Assembly (NCBI GenBank): GCA_035515795.1
Contig: DATJAY010000029.1
Span: 1 to 47,845, forward strand
Source of the DNA: Candidatus Acidiferrales bacterium
GTDB lineage: Bacteria; Bacteroidota; Ignavibacteria; Kryptoniales; JAKASW01
Length of the DNA: 47,845 nt
Reading direction: 5' to 3'
Within the stretch, counting starts at the first letter, position 1, and each line of letters begins with the position of its first letter. Position numbers and translations under genes: made by a program. The notes under the pieces were generated by a model. The model was not told the DNA's origin and searched no databases. It worked only from the letters and a program-made list of their open reading frames with translations. Below, piece by piece: positions 14,724 through 23,868 of the stretch.

Positions 14724-17219
14724 CTATCGGGCCTCTGCCGGGGTCTTCTTCCTCTTCCTTAATAGAAGCGTGAAACCGGTCCCCACCAATCCGAGAACCA
14801 ATACAATATTTGTCACGAGGCTTACACTGCGTCCGGCGTAATAAATTGTCGGATGGAAAACCAGACTCACCGTGTGATTCCCCCTCGGGATCAATATTCC
14901 TCTCAAGAAATAATCGCTCTGATAAATTTCCGCCGGCTCGCCATCAATCGTGGCTTCCCACCCTTTCGGATAGTAAATTTCGCTCAACACAAGGAAATTG
15001 TTTCCGGTGGCATTTACCTGCATTGCCATGGACTGCAATTCATAATCTGAAAATCTTACTCTCGCATCCGTGCCGGGCGCATCAATTTGAATATGCGGGT
15101 CAGTTTGGAGGTAAACCGTTTTTGACGGATCGAATGTCCCGTCACGCAGCGACTGGAGGGTCGTGAGTGCGGAGGCGACTTTGCAGTTATTGACAAAGAA
15201 CGCCCGCGGTAATGCATTGTCATTTTGCAGAACAAATTGCGAACCATGAAATACGATTCGTCCTAATAAACTGTCCGGTTTGTCGGAGATGACGTATTTT
15301 ACCCCGAGCAAGCGCAGGACATTCGGATTTGTTATTCCCGCCACGTCCATCATGTCCTGGTAATTCCTTAGCTTTGCTCCGGTATATCCATAGGCATTCT
15401 GCAGCTGGAAGTAGGCCAGCGTGTTTGAATACTCCGGTTGAAAGTTATGGAATTGAATGACCCTGTACAGCGTAGTGTCGCGCTGGATAAATGACACAAA
15501 ATCGGGTTTTGTAAACTGCTGTTCCAATCCGGCCTTGTCGCTGTACTCCATCGGTTTTGCATCCACTCGCCAGAGATCGACAAGCAGGACGAGGGTCAGT
15601 GCCCCCAAGGCAGTCACCGTTTTCAGCTTTCCCGTTAAGTACAAATAGATTATGCCGCACGTGGCAGTGCAGATCAGCAGCGAAACATAAAGGTCACTCA
15701 CCATGTTATCGAACAGAATTGGATACGCCTGCTGCGATACCTTGCGGCTGGAATCGATTATGCCGTAATAAAAGTCTTTGATGCTGCCGTTCAATGTGAG
15801 GCTCAAGAGTAAAAGTCCGGCGAAGACGCTTCCCGAAATAAAAATTCTCCTTGCAAACTGTTTGTCCGCATTCTCTCTTGCTTTGATCATCGAATCGATT
15901 CCGTAAGCCGCAAGGATCGGGATAAATATCTGCACCAGTACCAGTATCATGCTTGGAGATCGGAAGCGGTTGAAATAAGGGAAGTGATAAAACATCAAGT
16001 CGAAAAGGACCGAAAATGTATTTCCAAAAGAAAGAAGCAAAGTCACAATTATGGTGAAGAGTGAAAACTGGACGAACCTGTTCTTCCTGTTCGCCACAAA
16101 CCCGATTATCGCGAGAATTATCGTGATCACTCCCATGTATTCAGGGGCAACCGTAAATGGCATCTGCCCGAAATACGTGTTGACTCTCACATCCTGGTTG
16201 CTGGAAAGTGGACCATTATAAGTGTAGTCGCCGAACCCGTAAAACGAAGGCACGAAGAATGTTGTCAACTCTCCCGGACTGAACGACCAGCTGGTAGCGT
16301 AATCATAGCTGAGCCCGGCTCCACTTTGAGCGGCTTCGTTCGAGGTCTGAACAATCGGCTGGGAGCCGCGGATGGAATATTTACTGTACTCGAGTATCGA
16401 CATGTACTTATCCGAAGACATTGCAAACGCGATAACTCCTGCCGCAATAAGGATGGCGGCATTTCTCGTGAGACTCCGCAGATTTTCTTTTTTGAAGAGA
16501 GACACCACAAAATTATATAGGTAATACAAGCCTAAAGTCAAAAGTGTATAGTATATCATCTGGACATGCGAGCCTTCGAGCATCAGGTGAATTGCGATGA
16601 TGAGAGCGATAAAGTAAGACCATCTGAATTTTTTCGAAAGTTCAATGATGAAGATAAAGATGTACGGAAAGAACGAGATGGTTATTATTTTCGTGCCATG
16701 TCCCACCATGATCCAAATTATGATGTTCATAGTGAAAACTGTTGCGGTGGCGGCAAAGAAAGCCGCGAACTTTCCGATTCCCAATCGCCTCAGTAAAACA
16801 AAAACTCCGGTACCAAAGAAGAAATAGAAGAGCACCGCCCATGCAACATCAATATTGCCGGTCGCGATGGAGAGTGTCCTTATTATCTCGCCGAAAAGAT
16901 AGTTCGTGAGGTCGTATGCGCGCGTTCCCGCTATCATGAGGCTCGCGAACGAAGGCATTCCGCTGAAAACATAAGGTATCCAGAGCGGGAAGATGTGCTC
17001 ATTGCTTGCCTCCTGCAGGTAGGTCTGGAAGCTCATTGGTGAAATGACGTCCGGGCTGACGAACACCTTCCCTTCGAAGAAAGCCTTATTGAAAAACACG
17101 ACGAGCAGAACGAGAATCAGAATTATGAAAAATGGTGTTTCGTATCTTTCAGGGAGCAGTGATTTTTCCTGAGCAATAGATGCCTTGTTGAGTCTTTGCC
17201 TTTTGTCTTTTTGTGCCAT
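14724..17219 (-). CDS. YfhO family multispanning membrane protein, probable GT-C-like glycosyltransferase
   Basis: This 831-residue membrane protein has an N-terminal hydrophobic helix at about residues 28-47. An extracytoplasmic loop with SPMSFQTYLQEASN and FPLWIPYVFSGMPSFAS (about 80-110) follows, a pattern seen at the GT-C fold loop. About eleven further membrane helices run to residue ~555. A soluble extracytoplasmic domain then holds FVSFIQRDTTLYRVI and LSEIYYPKGWEATIDGE, typical of the YfhO family, and one last helix near 800-820 precedes a basic tail. In Gram-positives YfhO is linked to glycosylation of lipoteichoic acid. Here it may transfer sugar from a lipid phosphate to a surface glycan. 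It is convergent with the GT4 gene. Confidence 0.88.
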   Translation of the reverse strand: MAQKDKRQRLNKASIAQEKSLLPERYETPFFIILILVLLVVFFNKAFFEGKVFVSPDVISPMSFQTYLQEASNEHIFPLWIPYVFSGMPSFASLMIAGTRAYDLTNYLFGEIIRTLSIATGNIDVAWAVLFYFFFGTGVFVLLRRLGIGKFAAFFAATATVFTMNIIIWIMVGHGTKIITISFFPYIFIFIIELSKKFRWSYFIALIIAIHLMLEGSHVQMIYYTLLTLGLYYLYNFVVSLFKKENLRSLTRNAAILIAAGVIAFAMSSDKYMSILEYSKYSIRGSQPIVQTSNEAAQSGAGLSYDYATSWSFSPGELTTFFVPSFYGFGDYTYNGPLSSNQDVRVNTYFGQMPFTVAPEYMGVITIILAIIGFVANRKNRFVQFSLFTIIVTLLLSFGNTFSVLFDLMFYHFPYFNRFRSPSMILVLVQIFIPILAAYGIDSMIKARENADKQFARRIFISGSVFAGLLLLSLTLNGSIKDFYYGIIDSSRKVSQQAYPILFDNMVSDLYVSLLICTATCGIIYLYLTGKLKTVTALGALTLVLLVDLWRVDAKPMEYSDKAGLEQQFTKPDFVSFIQRDTTLYRVIQFHNFQPEYSNTLAYFQLQNAYGYTGAKLRNYQDMMDVAGITNPNVLRLLGVKYVISDKPDSLLGRIVFHGSQFVLQNDNALPRAFFVNNCKVASALTTLQSLRDGTFDPSKTVYLQTDPHIQIDAPGTDARVRFSDYELQSMAMQVNATGNNFLVLSEIYYPKGWEATIDGEPAEIYQSDYFLRGILIPRGNHTVSLVFHPTIYYAGRSVSLVTNIVLVLGLVGTGFTLLLRKRKKTPAEAR

Positions 17220-20224: not shown

Positions 20225-20340
20225 TCACTTCACCAGAACAAGTTTCTTTGTTTGCACGGACGTCCCAGCTTCGATTCTATAAAAATACGTCCCGCTGCAT
20301 ATTGTCTGCGCCTGGACCAATGTTGCTGATGCAGGCAGAA
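20225..20340 (-). pseudogene. decayed T9SS sorting-domain fragment
   Basis: The minus strand reads, in one open frame ending with TGA at 20225-20227, SGTYFYRIEAGTSVQTKKL then VLVK. This is the classic C-terminal end of a T9SS type A sorting domain (compare SGVYFYSL...KKMILVK and SGIYFYRI...RKMLLVK elsewhere in the window). Upstream the frame continues as ASATLVQAQTIC, which no longer matches the domain, and no QNYPNPFNP motif or start exists before the neighbouring GT9 stop at 20435. It is therefore the tail of a lost exported-protein gene. It fixes ancestral gene content here and explains part of the 398-base gap. Confidence 0.72.
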
Positions 20341-20434
20341 GCGGATTCTATCCCCGGTTATCCCGCTTATGAAATTGCTAAATTTATCATCCGCAAATCT
20401 GGTGTAGGGCCAACACGTTCATATTATTATGTCG

Positions 20435-21562
20435 TTACGGTATATTTTGGTCCAAACGATTCTTTTTTTGTAATTCAAGTAGATAATCCAGCTTCTTCAA
20501 GACATCGCTTACTTCGATTGATTTCATAAGCGTCGAATCTTTGGGATCGACTTTCAGTTGACTTTCTGTCCTTTCGCTGCCTGTCCAGACATATTGGAAT
20601 ATCGGAATATTCATGGGGTATGTGACGATGGGAGGAGTCACGCCCATCAGAGCGATGGTTGGTGTACGTTGTGAAATGGCAATCTGCATCGGGCCGGTGT
20701 TGACCGAAATGAAGACATCCATCCGCTGAAACAATGCGGCCAGTTCCAGTAAAGTGGTTTTGCCAACTAGACTTATGACTTCATTTTGCGGTTTCACTTT
20801 TTCCATGATGGCGTTAACATAGTCAATGTCATTCTTAGAACCTGTGAAAACAACCTTGGCTTTGTAGTGATTGACTAGTTCGTTTGCTAGCGCGGCAAAC
20901 TTTGTTTGTTCCCATCTCCGCTCCTTCCACGTTTCGCGGCAGTTTGATTGAATACCGACCAAAAGATCTGAGGCAGATACATTGCACTTGTGCAGCAATT
21001 CTGATACTCTCTCTTTGTATTCGGCCGTAACGGGGAAGATCATCTCACGCTCAATTATTTTCCACCCAAACGCTTGCTCGAAAAGCTCTACGCATTCATC
21101 AATTCGATAACGCGTTTGGGCTGTCCGCGTCGGTATTGACACACGAATATTGTTGAAGCAGCCCCTGTTGCGATAGTCATAACCGAGTCGATACCTGCCG
21201 CCGATAATCCACATAAGGAAATTTGTTCTAAGCGATGTGTTGAGTTGAAGCACCAAGTCGAACTTCTCGGCTCGGAGTCGAAAGAGTGTGCTCAGTTGTC
21301 GCAGCAAATATGTTTTGGGTATACTGTGAATACGGTCGACATAAGGATTAGTAGAAAGTATTTCTGCAGTAAATGGATATACGAGAGCATCTACCGTCAC
21401 ATTTGGAAGATTGTCTTTCAATGCCTTATAAACCGGTGACGAGAAGAGCATGTCACCTATGTAGTTAAGGTCAACCACAAGAATTCTGCGAACGCGATCG
21501 AGTTTCGTCGGCAGAGCATATTTGCCGATAACTTTTCCCAATATTTTTAGAAAGTATCTCAT
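20435..21562 (-). CDS. GT9 glycosyltransferase (ADP-heptose:LPS heptosyltransferase-like)
   Basis: This 375-residue GT-B enzyme is of the heptosyltransferase family. The N-terminal strand and loop read RRILVVDLNYIGDMLFSSPV at about 25-44, with D-x-x-x-I-G-D as in RfaF/WaaF relatives. The C-terminal donor half has VGIQSNCRETWKERRW near 203, VVFTGSKNDIDYV, SLVGKTTLLELAALFQRMD, and the nucleotide-sugar loop VFISVNTGPMQIAISQRTP. The last gene of the long minus-strand glycan operon, it starts with ATG only six bases after the 42-residue peptide. The sugar may not be heptose; the family also adds other sugars to surface glycans. Confidence 0.9.
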   Translation of the reverse strand: MRYFLKILGKVIGKYALPTKLDRVRRILVVDLNYIGDMLFSSPVYKALKDNLPNVTVDALVYPFTAEILSTNPYVDRIHSIPKTYLLRQLSTLFRLRAEKFDLVLQLNTSLRTNFLMWIIGGRYRLGYDYRNRGCFNNIRVSIPTRTAQTRYRIDECVELFEQAFGWKIIEREMIFPVTAEYKERVSELLHKCNVSASDLLVGIQSNCRETWKERRWEQTKFAALANELVNHYKAKVVFTGSKNDIDYVNAIMEKVKPQNEVISLVGKTTLLELAALFQRMDVFISVNTGPMQIAISQRTPTIALMGVTPPIVTYPMNIPIFQYVWTGSERTESQLKVDPKDSTLMKSIEVSDVLKKLDYLLELQKKNRLDQNIP

Positions 21563-21568
21563 GTGAGT

Positions 21569-21697
21569 TTAGACGGCGCTAGTCAATGTATCACCCATAT
21601 CGTCGCACAGTTCAGAAAGAATCTTCGTCTGGAAGGTGCATATTGAGTCATCCATCATCTTTTCAATGTAGCCTTGATTAACATGAGAACCGTTCAT
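21569..21697 (-). CDS. 42-residue acidic peptide coupled between two GT9 genes
   Basis: ATG at 21695-21697 overlaps the TGA of the upstream GT9 gene as ATGA, a translational-coupling arrangement. The frame runs 42 codons to TAA at 21569-21571, and the next GT9 starts six bases later. The peptide begins MNGSHVNQGYIEKMMDDSIC and continues TFQTKILSELCDDM. It is acidic (seven Asp/Glu against two Lys), has Cys at 20 and 31, and the middle is compatible with an amphipathic helix. There is no signal peptide. The packing on both sides argues strongly that it is translated. I recognise no family; a remnant of a larger gene is the main alternative. Confidence 0.6.
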   Translation of the reverse strand: MNGSHVNQGYIEKMMDDSICTFQTKILSELCDDMGDTLTSAV

Positions 21698-22890
21698 TTA
21701 TTTCGCGTCACTTGCAACAGTTCGTCCACAACTTCAATTACATTTTGCGGCTCTATTCGGTTGATATCCAATTTAGACCATTCGGAGGAGGGCAAAAAAG
21801 GTTTTCGTGACCTTTCAATCTTTCGTAGGAGGGAAGGATGGAAAACAAACCGGGCTGGCACTCCCCACGTTTCAGGGTACGGCACGAACCGCAAGTAACT
21901 ATTCCCGTTTGACACGCATACTACAGGACATCCAACGGCCACCGCGATATGCAGTGCCCCGGTATCGTTAACGAGGGCGAGTGATGCACTCGAGAGGAGG
22001 CACGCCAGCTCAACTAAGGATAGTTTGCCGGTGTAGTCCAGTACTTGAAAATCTTTTAGTCTTGACGCGACTTCGTTTGTATACGGGCGGTCCGCCCCCG
22101 AGCCGGCCAACGCAACCCCGAAATTGTATTTTTCACAACCATGACGGGCAACTAAGGCAAAATTCTCCGGGGACCACCTTCTCCATTTTCTCCCAGCTCC
22201 AGGAAAGACCACCATGTAATTGGTCGGGGGAAGCGTAACCTTCATCGGCCCGCTCGTTAACTGAATGCTGGTGTGCTCAACGTTAATCGTTTCATCCAAA
22301 AGACTTTCAATAAAGCTTTTGTTCCTCATAAACTCAAACGTGGTGCGGGGAAGAGAAGGAATCAGTTTATGATAAAATCTATCGGAAATGAACTTGGCTA
22401 TAAACGAAGAAGCGACAGTGTCCCCGGTTGCTCCAATTTTCTCCCGCGCCCTGGCAAGTCTGACGACCGGGTCGCCATACAAGAATTCTCGCGACATGAC
22501 TGGCTGCACCACTACATCATAGTCTTTTGCCCGAATTGCTGACAAGATGGACCATCGATAGGAAAGAGAACTTTTAAACTCCCTGCGGTTTATCCAGATG
22601 AAATCATCAACTGAACCCGAGTCTAGATCCAGGGCCAAGTCTTTCCATACTTCATTTCCGCATAAGGTTATTCTATGGCCACTGAACCTATTGCTGTGTC
22701 TTATGGAATTCAGGAAATTTCTGAAGAGGACATAGTCTCCGATGGCATCCAGTCTCACAATGAGCATCTCCGGCCGCTTTTCGGGATTGCCAGTTCCGCT
22801 TTTTTTCTCGGAAACTTTTCTCCACAACAGGAAGGCGAAGTCATAGGTGAAGTAGAACAGAACCCTGATATAGTATCTCGGACCATACAT
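21694..22890 (-). CDS. GT9 glycosyltransferase (heptosyltransferase-like)
   Basis: This 398-residue GT-B enzyme starts with an N-terminal hydrophobic/basic lead (IRVLFYFTYDFAFLLWRKV), perhaps membrane-associated. The family strand is EMLIVRLDAIGDYVLFRNFL at about 41-60. The donor half has YMVVFPGAGRKWRRWSPENF, VALAGSGADRPYTNEVA, DYTGKLSLVELACLLSSASL and ALVNDTGALHIAVAVGCPVV, the sugar-nucleotide loop of GT9. AGGAG lies about ten bases before ATG 22890. It sits between a GT2 and the coupled small peptide in the minus-strand operon, so it likely adds a later sugar of the same glycan. Confidence 0.9.
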   Translation of the reverse strand: MYGPRYYIRVLFYFTYDFAFLLWRKVSEKKSGTGNPEKRPEMLIVRLDAIGDYVLFRNFLNSIRHSNRFSGHRITLCGNEVWKDLALDLDSGSVDDFIWINRREFKSSLSYRWSILSAIRAKDYDVVVQPVMSREFLYGDPVVRLARAREKIGATGDTVASSFIAKFISDRFYHKLIPSLPRTTFEFMRNKSFIESLLDETINVEHTSIQLTSGPMKVTLPPTNYMVVFPGAGRKWRRWSPENFALVARHGCEKYNFGVALAGSGADRPYTNEVASRLKDFQVLDYTGKLSLVELACLLSSASLALVNDTGALHIAVAVGCPVVCVSNGNSYLRFVPYPETWGVPARFVFHPSLLRKIERSRKPFLPSSEWSKLDINRIEPQNVIEVVDELLQVTRNK

Positions 22891-22947: not shown

Positions 22948-23868
22948 CTAGAGTTTGTAAAGACTCCCTTCGCCATTACTTCCGGTATAATTAATTAGCC
23001 CGTCTCTTAGCCCGAGAAATGCAGCGCGTGCTGCCCTGTAGTTTTTATGTTTGAGAATTAGTCTGACAAATTGTCTGCCGTAGAAATAAATGAAATATTG
23101 CAGATTGAACAACCATTTTCTCGGATTTCCGTTCTTTCTAAGAAACAAGATCTTGTTTCTCAGGTTGAAATAAACGTAAGTTGGACTGTCCCACCGAATC
23201 GAGCTTGAAACCCTGTGATACAACACAGCGGCCGGTTGGTAAAGAACAGAGTAACCTGCCCGTTTTGCCCTTACCGAATAATCAGCATCTTCAAGGTAAA
23301 GAAAGTAGCTGTGGTCTAGCTTGCCGATCTTTTCTATGACCTCGCGTTTGATCAGCATACAGCAGCCTGTAACAAAGTCGGTCTCAACGCAATGTTGTTG
23401 CAATCCATCGTCCTCTTTGCCGATTCCGATGTGAGTTCCTAGCCCCCTGTCAATATCCAGCCTGCCGCCCGCGTACCATAATGTATTTGGTTTGTCATAG
23501 TAATGAATTTTTGCTCCAATGATTCCAGCCTCAGGTTCTTGTTTAGCGGTCTCCACTAATTTTTCGATCGTGTCTTCTTTCACTATTGTGTCGTTGTTTA
23601 GAAGCAGGATAAGGTCTGCCCCATTTTGGAGTGCGTAATCAATTCCCATGTTGTTTGCACCGCCGAATCCAAGATTTTGTTCCGTGGATAACACAACCAC
23701 GCCATGGCACGCCTGCTGAAGGATTTTTCGAGAGTCTGATGTGCCCCCATTGTCTATTATTATTACATTGAAATCCGTGAGCGAGCTTTTGCGCAGGGAT
23801 TTCACACAATCAATAGTCTGATCCGCTTCTCCGAAGTTTACGAGAATTATGAACAGAGAATTAATCAT
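22948..23868 (-). CDS. GT2 glycosyltransferase (rhamnosyltransferase-like)
   Basis: This 306-residue GT-A inverting enzyme starts with NSLFIILVNFGEADQTIDCV. It shows IIDNGGTSDSRK, the N-terminal Gly-rich EQNLGFGGANNMGIDYAL, and the metal-binding D-x-D-type LILLLNNDTIV. DFVTGCCMLIKREVIEKIGK, LYLEDADYSVRAKRAGY and YHRVSSSIRW follow, typical of WbbL/RfbF rhamnosyltransferase relatives. The open frame extends upstream to 23991, but the added 41 residues are unlike the family; ATG 23868 places the first beta strand at residue 3. It is paralogous to the GT2 at 28537-29448, with nearly the same motif order, pointing to duplication inside the operon. Confidence 0.91.
   Translation of the reverse strand: MINSLFIILVNFGEADQTIDCVKSLRKSSLTDFNVIIIDNGGTSDSRKILQQACHGVVVLSTEQNLGFGGANNMGIDYALQNGADLILLLNNDTIVKEDTIEKLVETAKQEPEAGIIGAKIHYYDKPNTLWYAGGRLDIDRGLGTHIGIGKEDDGLQQHCVETDFVTGCCMLIKREVIEKIGKLDHSYFLYLEDADYSVRAKRAGYSVLYQPAAVLYHRVSSSIRWDSPTYVYFNLRNKILFLRKNGNPRKWLFNLQYFIYFYGRQFVRLILKHKNYRAARAAFLGLRDGLINYTGSNGEGSLYKL

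Follow-up and report, generated by a model that had tools for sequence, protein, structure and literature searches.

What is the role, if any, of a 42-codon open reading frame (ORF) packed exactly between two glycosyltransferase genes of a bacterial polysaccharide cluster? In the window, that is the whole stretch of 47,845 nucleotides analyzed here from a Candidatus Acidiferrales bacterium (contig DATJAY010000029.1, assembly GCA_035515795.1), this orphan ORF runs on the minus strand from 21697 to 21569 and encodes the peptide MNGSHVNQGYIEKMMDDSICTFQTKILSELCDDMGDTLTSAV*. Its ATG lies over the TGA of the upstream GT9 glycosyltransferase gene in an ATGA stop/start overlap (21694-21697, minus strand), and its TAA is followed, after a 6-nt gap without Shine-Dalgarno sequence (ACTCAC, 21563-21568, minus strand), by the ATG of a second GT9 gene, giving the junction TAA-ACTCAC-ATG. 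The ORF fills the 131-nt gap from the upstream GT9 stop to the downstream GT9 start. These coordinates and the stop/start sequence agree with those of a previous sequence-only reading of the locus; that reading did not mention that the ORF shares its frame with the downstream GT9. The peptide has seven aspartate or glutamate residues, two lysines, no arginine and two cysteines, and AlphaFold2, run on the single sequence, predicted one helix (residues 3-41, mean pLDDT 85, pTM 0.46), in keeping with the earlier description of an acidic peptide with two cysteines and a helix-compatible middle.

Both neighbours of the ORF proved to be GT9 genes, as had been proposed, and both are complete without it. 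The upstream gene (21694-22890, minus strand; 398 aa, complete) matched Pfam PF01075 (Glyco_transf_9) with an E value of 2.2e-14, and the heptosyltransferase-III/RfaQ-like downstream gene (20435-21562, minus strand; 375 aa) matched the same family with an E value of 2e-30. The downstream protein also matched TIGR02201 (E 1.5e-40), below the TIGR02201 cutoff, and neither flanking protein reaches the NCBIfam equivalog cutoffs. Read along the minus strand, a GT2 gene (22948-23868, from its likely ATG) is followed by the first GT9, the 42-codon ORF and the second GT9, within a polysaccharide cluster with a flippase, methyltransferases and GT1 genes. The two GT9s of the window are alignable over 93 residues only, with 30% identity, and this limited similarity indicates that they are not the product of a recent duplication.

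A conserved small-protein gene would be recognized by homologues that keep its frame, and we observed none. The peptide had no homologue in its own genome, its genus, 395 genomes of the phylum, plasmids, PDB, Pfam, NCBIfam or PHROGs. Beside the relatives of the GT9s, too, no homologue was found. At the DNA level, the interval had no match in the 12 other genomes searched from the genus, and the collections searched contained no homologous interval for a Ka/Ks comparison. Matches of the peptide to RAG1 and PHROG entries (E 0.035-0.14) were judged spurious; further weak matches (including those in genomes G204 and G040) fell outside GT9 pairs, and the two that were inspected sit in unrelated regions, e.g., a cytochrome oxidase operon. 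Judged from these sequence comparisons, the 42-codon ORF would not be a conserved protein gene.

For the upstream GT9, 19 relatives were found in other genera, with about 30-41% identity. Most of them end near the same place, and on this ground we rejected the ORF as a C-terminal extension of the upstream GT9. Neither a GT9 nor an ATGA mini-ORF followed in any of the 18 relatives with readable downstream sequence (the 19th runs off its contig); the genes on their 3' side are presumably, from a reading of the sequences, a GT2, an NAD kinase, a methyltransferase, an ABC ATPase or others. No viral contig carrying the upstream GT9 was found. The downstream GT9 had one close relative only (locus L066 of genome G524), 54% identical over its length, and since this relative begins at the same methionine, the start of the downstream GT9 is confirmed. 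In L066, a GT2 gene ends 2 nt before the GT9, which leaves no room for the peptide, and none is present. Both flanking genes are thus members of the GT9/heptosyltransferase family (PF01075, TIGR02201, RfaQ), but no relative found here has a 42-aa partner. An 830-aa membrane protein, which from its sequence we take to be YfhO-like, is also encoded near the downstream GT9 in the window (14724-17219, minus strand) and in L066 (7303-9819, plus strand), with 30% identity, so the two loci have more in common than the GT9.

Because the relatives lack both the peptide and the GT9-GT9 arrangement, and because the window GT9s are not recent duplicates, the pair appears to have been joined in this lineage. 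In the simplest view, recombination would have brought the two genes together, and the 131 nt would be the junction sequence. We consider it probable that the ORF is a lineage-specific junction sequence joining two distantly related GT9s in a variable polysaccharide cluster, a reading that takes together a translated version, acting as a bridge in cis, and an untranslated one. In the translated version, ribosomes ending the upstream GT9 would reinitiate at the ATGA overlap, read the 42 codons and then reach the downstream GT9 start 6 nt further on. ATGA and TGATG overlaps operate by termination-reinitiation, the overlap ATG being an efficient reinitiation site in the tested organisms (Huber 2019, PMC6728339), and reinitiation works at -4, falls steeply beyond about 10-20 nt and fails over gaps of ~20-38 nt (Huber 2023, PMC10666635). 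The window ORF starts at -4 and ends at +6, both working distances (PMC6728339, PMC10666635), and has the geometry of a coupled ORF, in which start and upstream stop overlap by 4 or 1 nt (here the ATGA) and no more than about 10-14 nt separate the ORF stop from the following start (here 6 nt). The -4 step, a translated spacer and the +6 step together would restore coupling over a 131-nt gap that could not otherwise be crossed. However, the known overlaps join two real genes, whereas the ORF in the middle here is an orphan of 42 codons. Short ORFs whose sole role is ribosome delivery have been described in a 2025 review (PMC12548453), and such a sequence-free role would suit a short unconserved ORF, whereas the window ORF differs in lying inside an operon between two enzymes, with putative translation. 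In this translated version, any function of the ORF would most likely be exerted in cis, the peptide sequence being of no importance. Neither the ORF start (Shine-Dalgarno energy -1.1) nor the downstream GT9 start (+1.2, in the weakest 5% of genes) has a Shine-Dalgarno sequence; since Bacteroidetes hardly use one (PMC6728339), its absence here says little. The earlier claim of translational coupling stands in so far as the ATGA overlap and the +6 gap fit the needs of termination-reinitiation, but the coupling itself is plausible and unproven, and we give even chances to the ORF being translated at all. Translation would make it an elegant example from nature of a short ORF carrying ribosomes across a distance that reinitiation cannot span.

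The strictly untranslated version of the junction reading, with a chance ORF of no function and each GT9 initiating independently, is possible; the confidence placed in it overlaps with that in the junction reading as a whole, which includes it. We regard the untranslated spacer and the translated cis bridge as about as likely. The packing of the ORF had been described as not expected by chance, which is only partly right. For a single 131-nt gap, a second-order Markov model puts the chance of such an ORF at 0.8% if an ATG in an ATGA is required, and at 1.5% if any start may overlap the stop. The description was nevertheless overstated: an 847-kb sample of this genome has 221 comparable same-strand gaps (60-350 nt), and in 14 of them an ORF overlaps the stop upstream and closes between -15 and +20 nt of the next start (own-genome samples were of 847 kb and later 1.22 Mb). 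The whole genome should therefore have a few tens of such ORFs, and it is no surprise that a scan meets one. A short ORF packed exactly between operon genes seems designed, yet about 6% of comparable gaps here have one. Among the 14, one is an evident real gene and most others are non-coding by codon score. The real gene (G000 C39:138504-138753, minus strand, within L115) encodes 79-80 aa, is coupled to its upstream neighbour and, from its CxxC motif, is presumably thioredoxin/glutaredoxin-like. The cluster of the window also has other spacers, of 57-396 nt, in line with an untranslated stretch between the GT9s.

Two features speak against an untranslated spacer, namely the ATGA overlap, at which the organisms tested reinitiate efficiently (PMC6728339), and the codon score, which also counts against the junction reading in general. 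The 42-codon ORF is the best-scoring of the six frames, with 0.10 per codon, and ranks second among the 14 packed ORFs, behind only the real gene. Its score corresponds to the 40th percentile of real genes and exceeds that of 89% of intergenic frames, i.e., it lies in about their upper tenth, with a likelihood ratio of about 3.4. The score is gene-like, yet falls short of deciding: 11% of the intergenic frames score at least as high, as do 30% of best-of-six control frames. Overall, packing by itself is weak evidence for a gene and the codon signal is modest. A structured RNA, a promoter and a terminator were each looked for in the gap and none was found; the gap had no RNA fold signal (z -0.36) and no Rfam match.

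Rather unlikely is the explanation by a remnant, according to which the upstream GT9 would formerly have been coupled to another gene; the body of this gene would have been deleted when the downstream GT9 moved in, leaving its start codon and perhaps some further codons behind. The sequence-only reading had considered such a residue of a larger gene, and the junction at locus L100 (genome G492) lends the idea weak circumstantial support: the orthologous GT9 ends there in the same 12 nt (GAAATAAATGAA) as in the window, and a real gene of 364 aa begins at the ATGA. At L091 and L108, the GT9 stop is followed after 1-2 nt by the start of the next gene. From these three loci, a tight junction after the upstream-type GT9 recurs whatever gene comes next, and a coupled gene, since lost, may have left its start behind in the window ATGA. 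However, no sequence remnant was found: no alignment to an intact gene, by which a pseudogene remnant is recognized, was observed, and the peptide aligned to the neighbour genes no better than shuffled sequences (best 41; shuffled maxima 36-43). Codons 6-15 do resemble a gene leader, as a 26-nt stretch (21655-21680, minus strand) is 92% (24/26 nt) identical to G000 C25:21922-21947 (plus strand), the spacer immediately preceding the start codon of a Wzy-like gene, which belongs to a different polysaccharide cluster of this genome. The ATG within the match is codon 14 in the window ORF and the gene start at C25, where the stretch is untranslated. Matches as strong are reached by about 5% of gaps, which tells against the remnant; if meaningful, the match would hint at leader sequence rather than protein. 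As a shared leader motif, TCAAGGCTACNTTGAAAAGATG was rejected, being exact at two places of its own genome only and not recurrent in 60 related genomes, as was a second match, of 22 nt, inside a dxs-like gene. The remnant explanation is about origin, and could be compatible with either a translated or an untranslated spacer.

A genuine small protein of ~42 aa, folded as a single acidic helix and binding or regulating either or both of the GT9s, with coupling setting the stoichiometry, is still less likely, and its more specific form, a young lineage-specific protein that would regulate the GT9 pair at a fixed ratio via double termination-reinitiation, is more doubtful again. The gene-like codon score, the enrichment of ATGA overlaps among complex subunits (PMC10666635) and the single helix predicted from one sequence argue for such a protein, and the absence of homologues, taken here in favour of a junction sequence, equally fits a genuine young gene. 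On the other side, no search returned a homologue, the GT9 relatives have no such peptide nearby, and a single-helix prediction for a short acidic sequence is weak evidence. The proposal of a small subunit or regulator of the two glycosyltransferases thus finds no support; among the three main readings, that of a functional peptide has the lowest probability, and an incidental or merely read-through spacer is more likely than a new enzyme subunit. That the ORF was once an N-terminal extension of the downstream GT9, separated from it by a nonsense mutation, is highly improbable and close to refuted, as the shared frame that suggests it is expected by chance one time in three, and the 54% relative has the same start methionine with an in-frame stop just upstream.

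Just 3' of the second GT9, the minus strand carries a fragment of a type IX secretion C-terminal sorting domain (20225-20344, SGTYFYRIEAGTSVQTKKLVLVK*), the rest of the gene being missing. This fragment is a pseudogene remnant, and gene loss does happen in the surrounding stretch.
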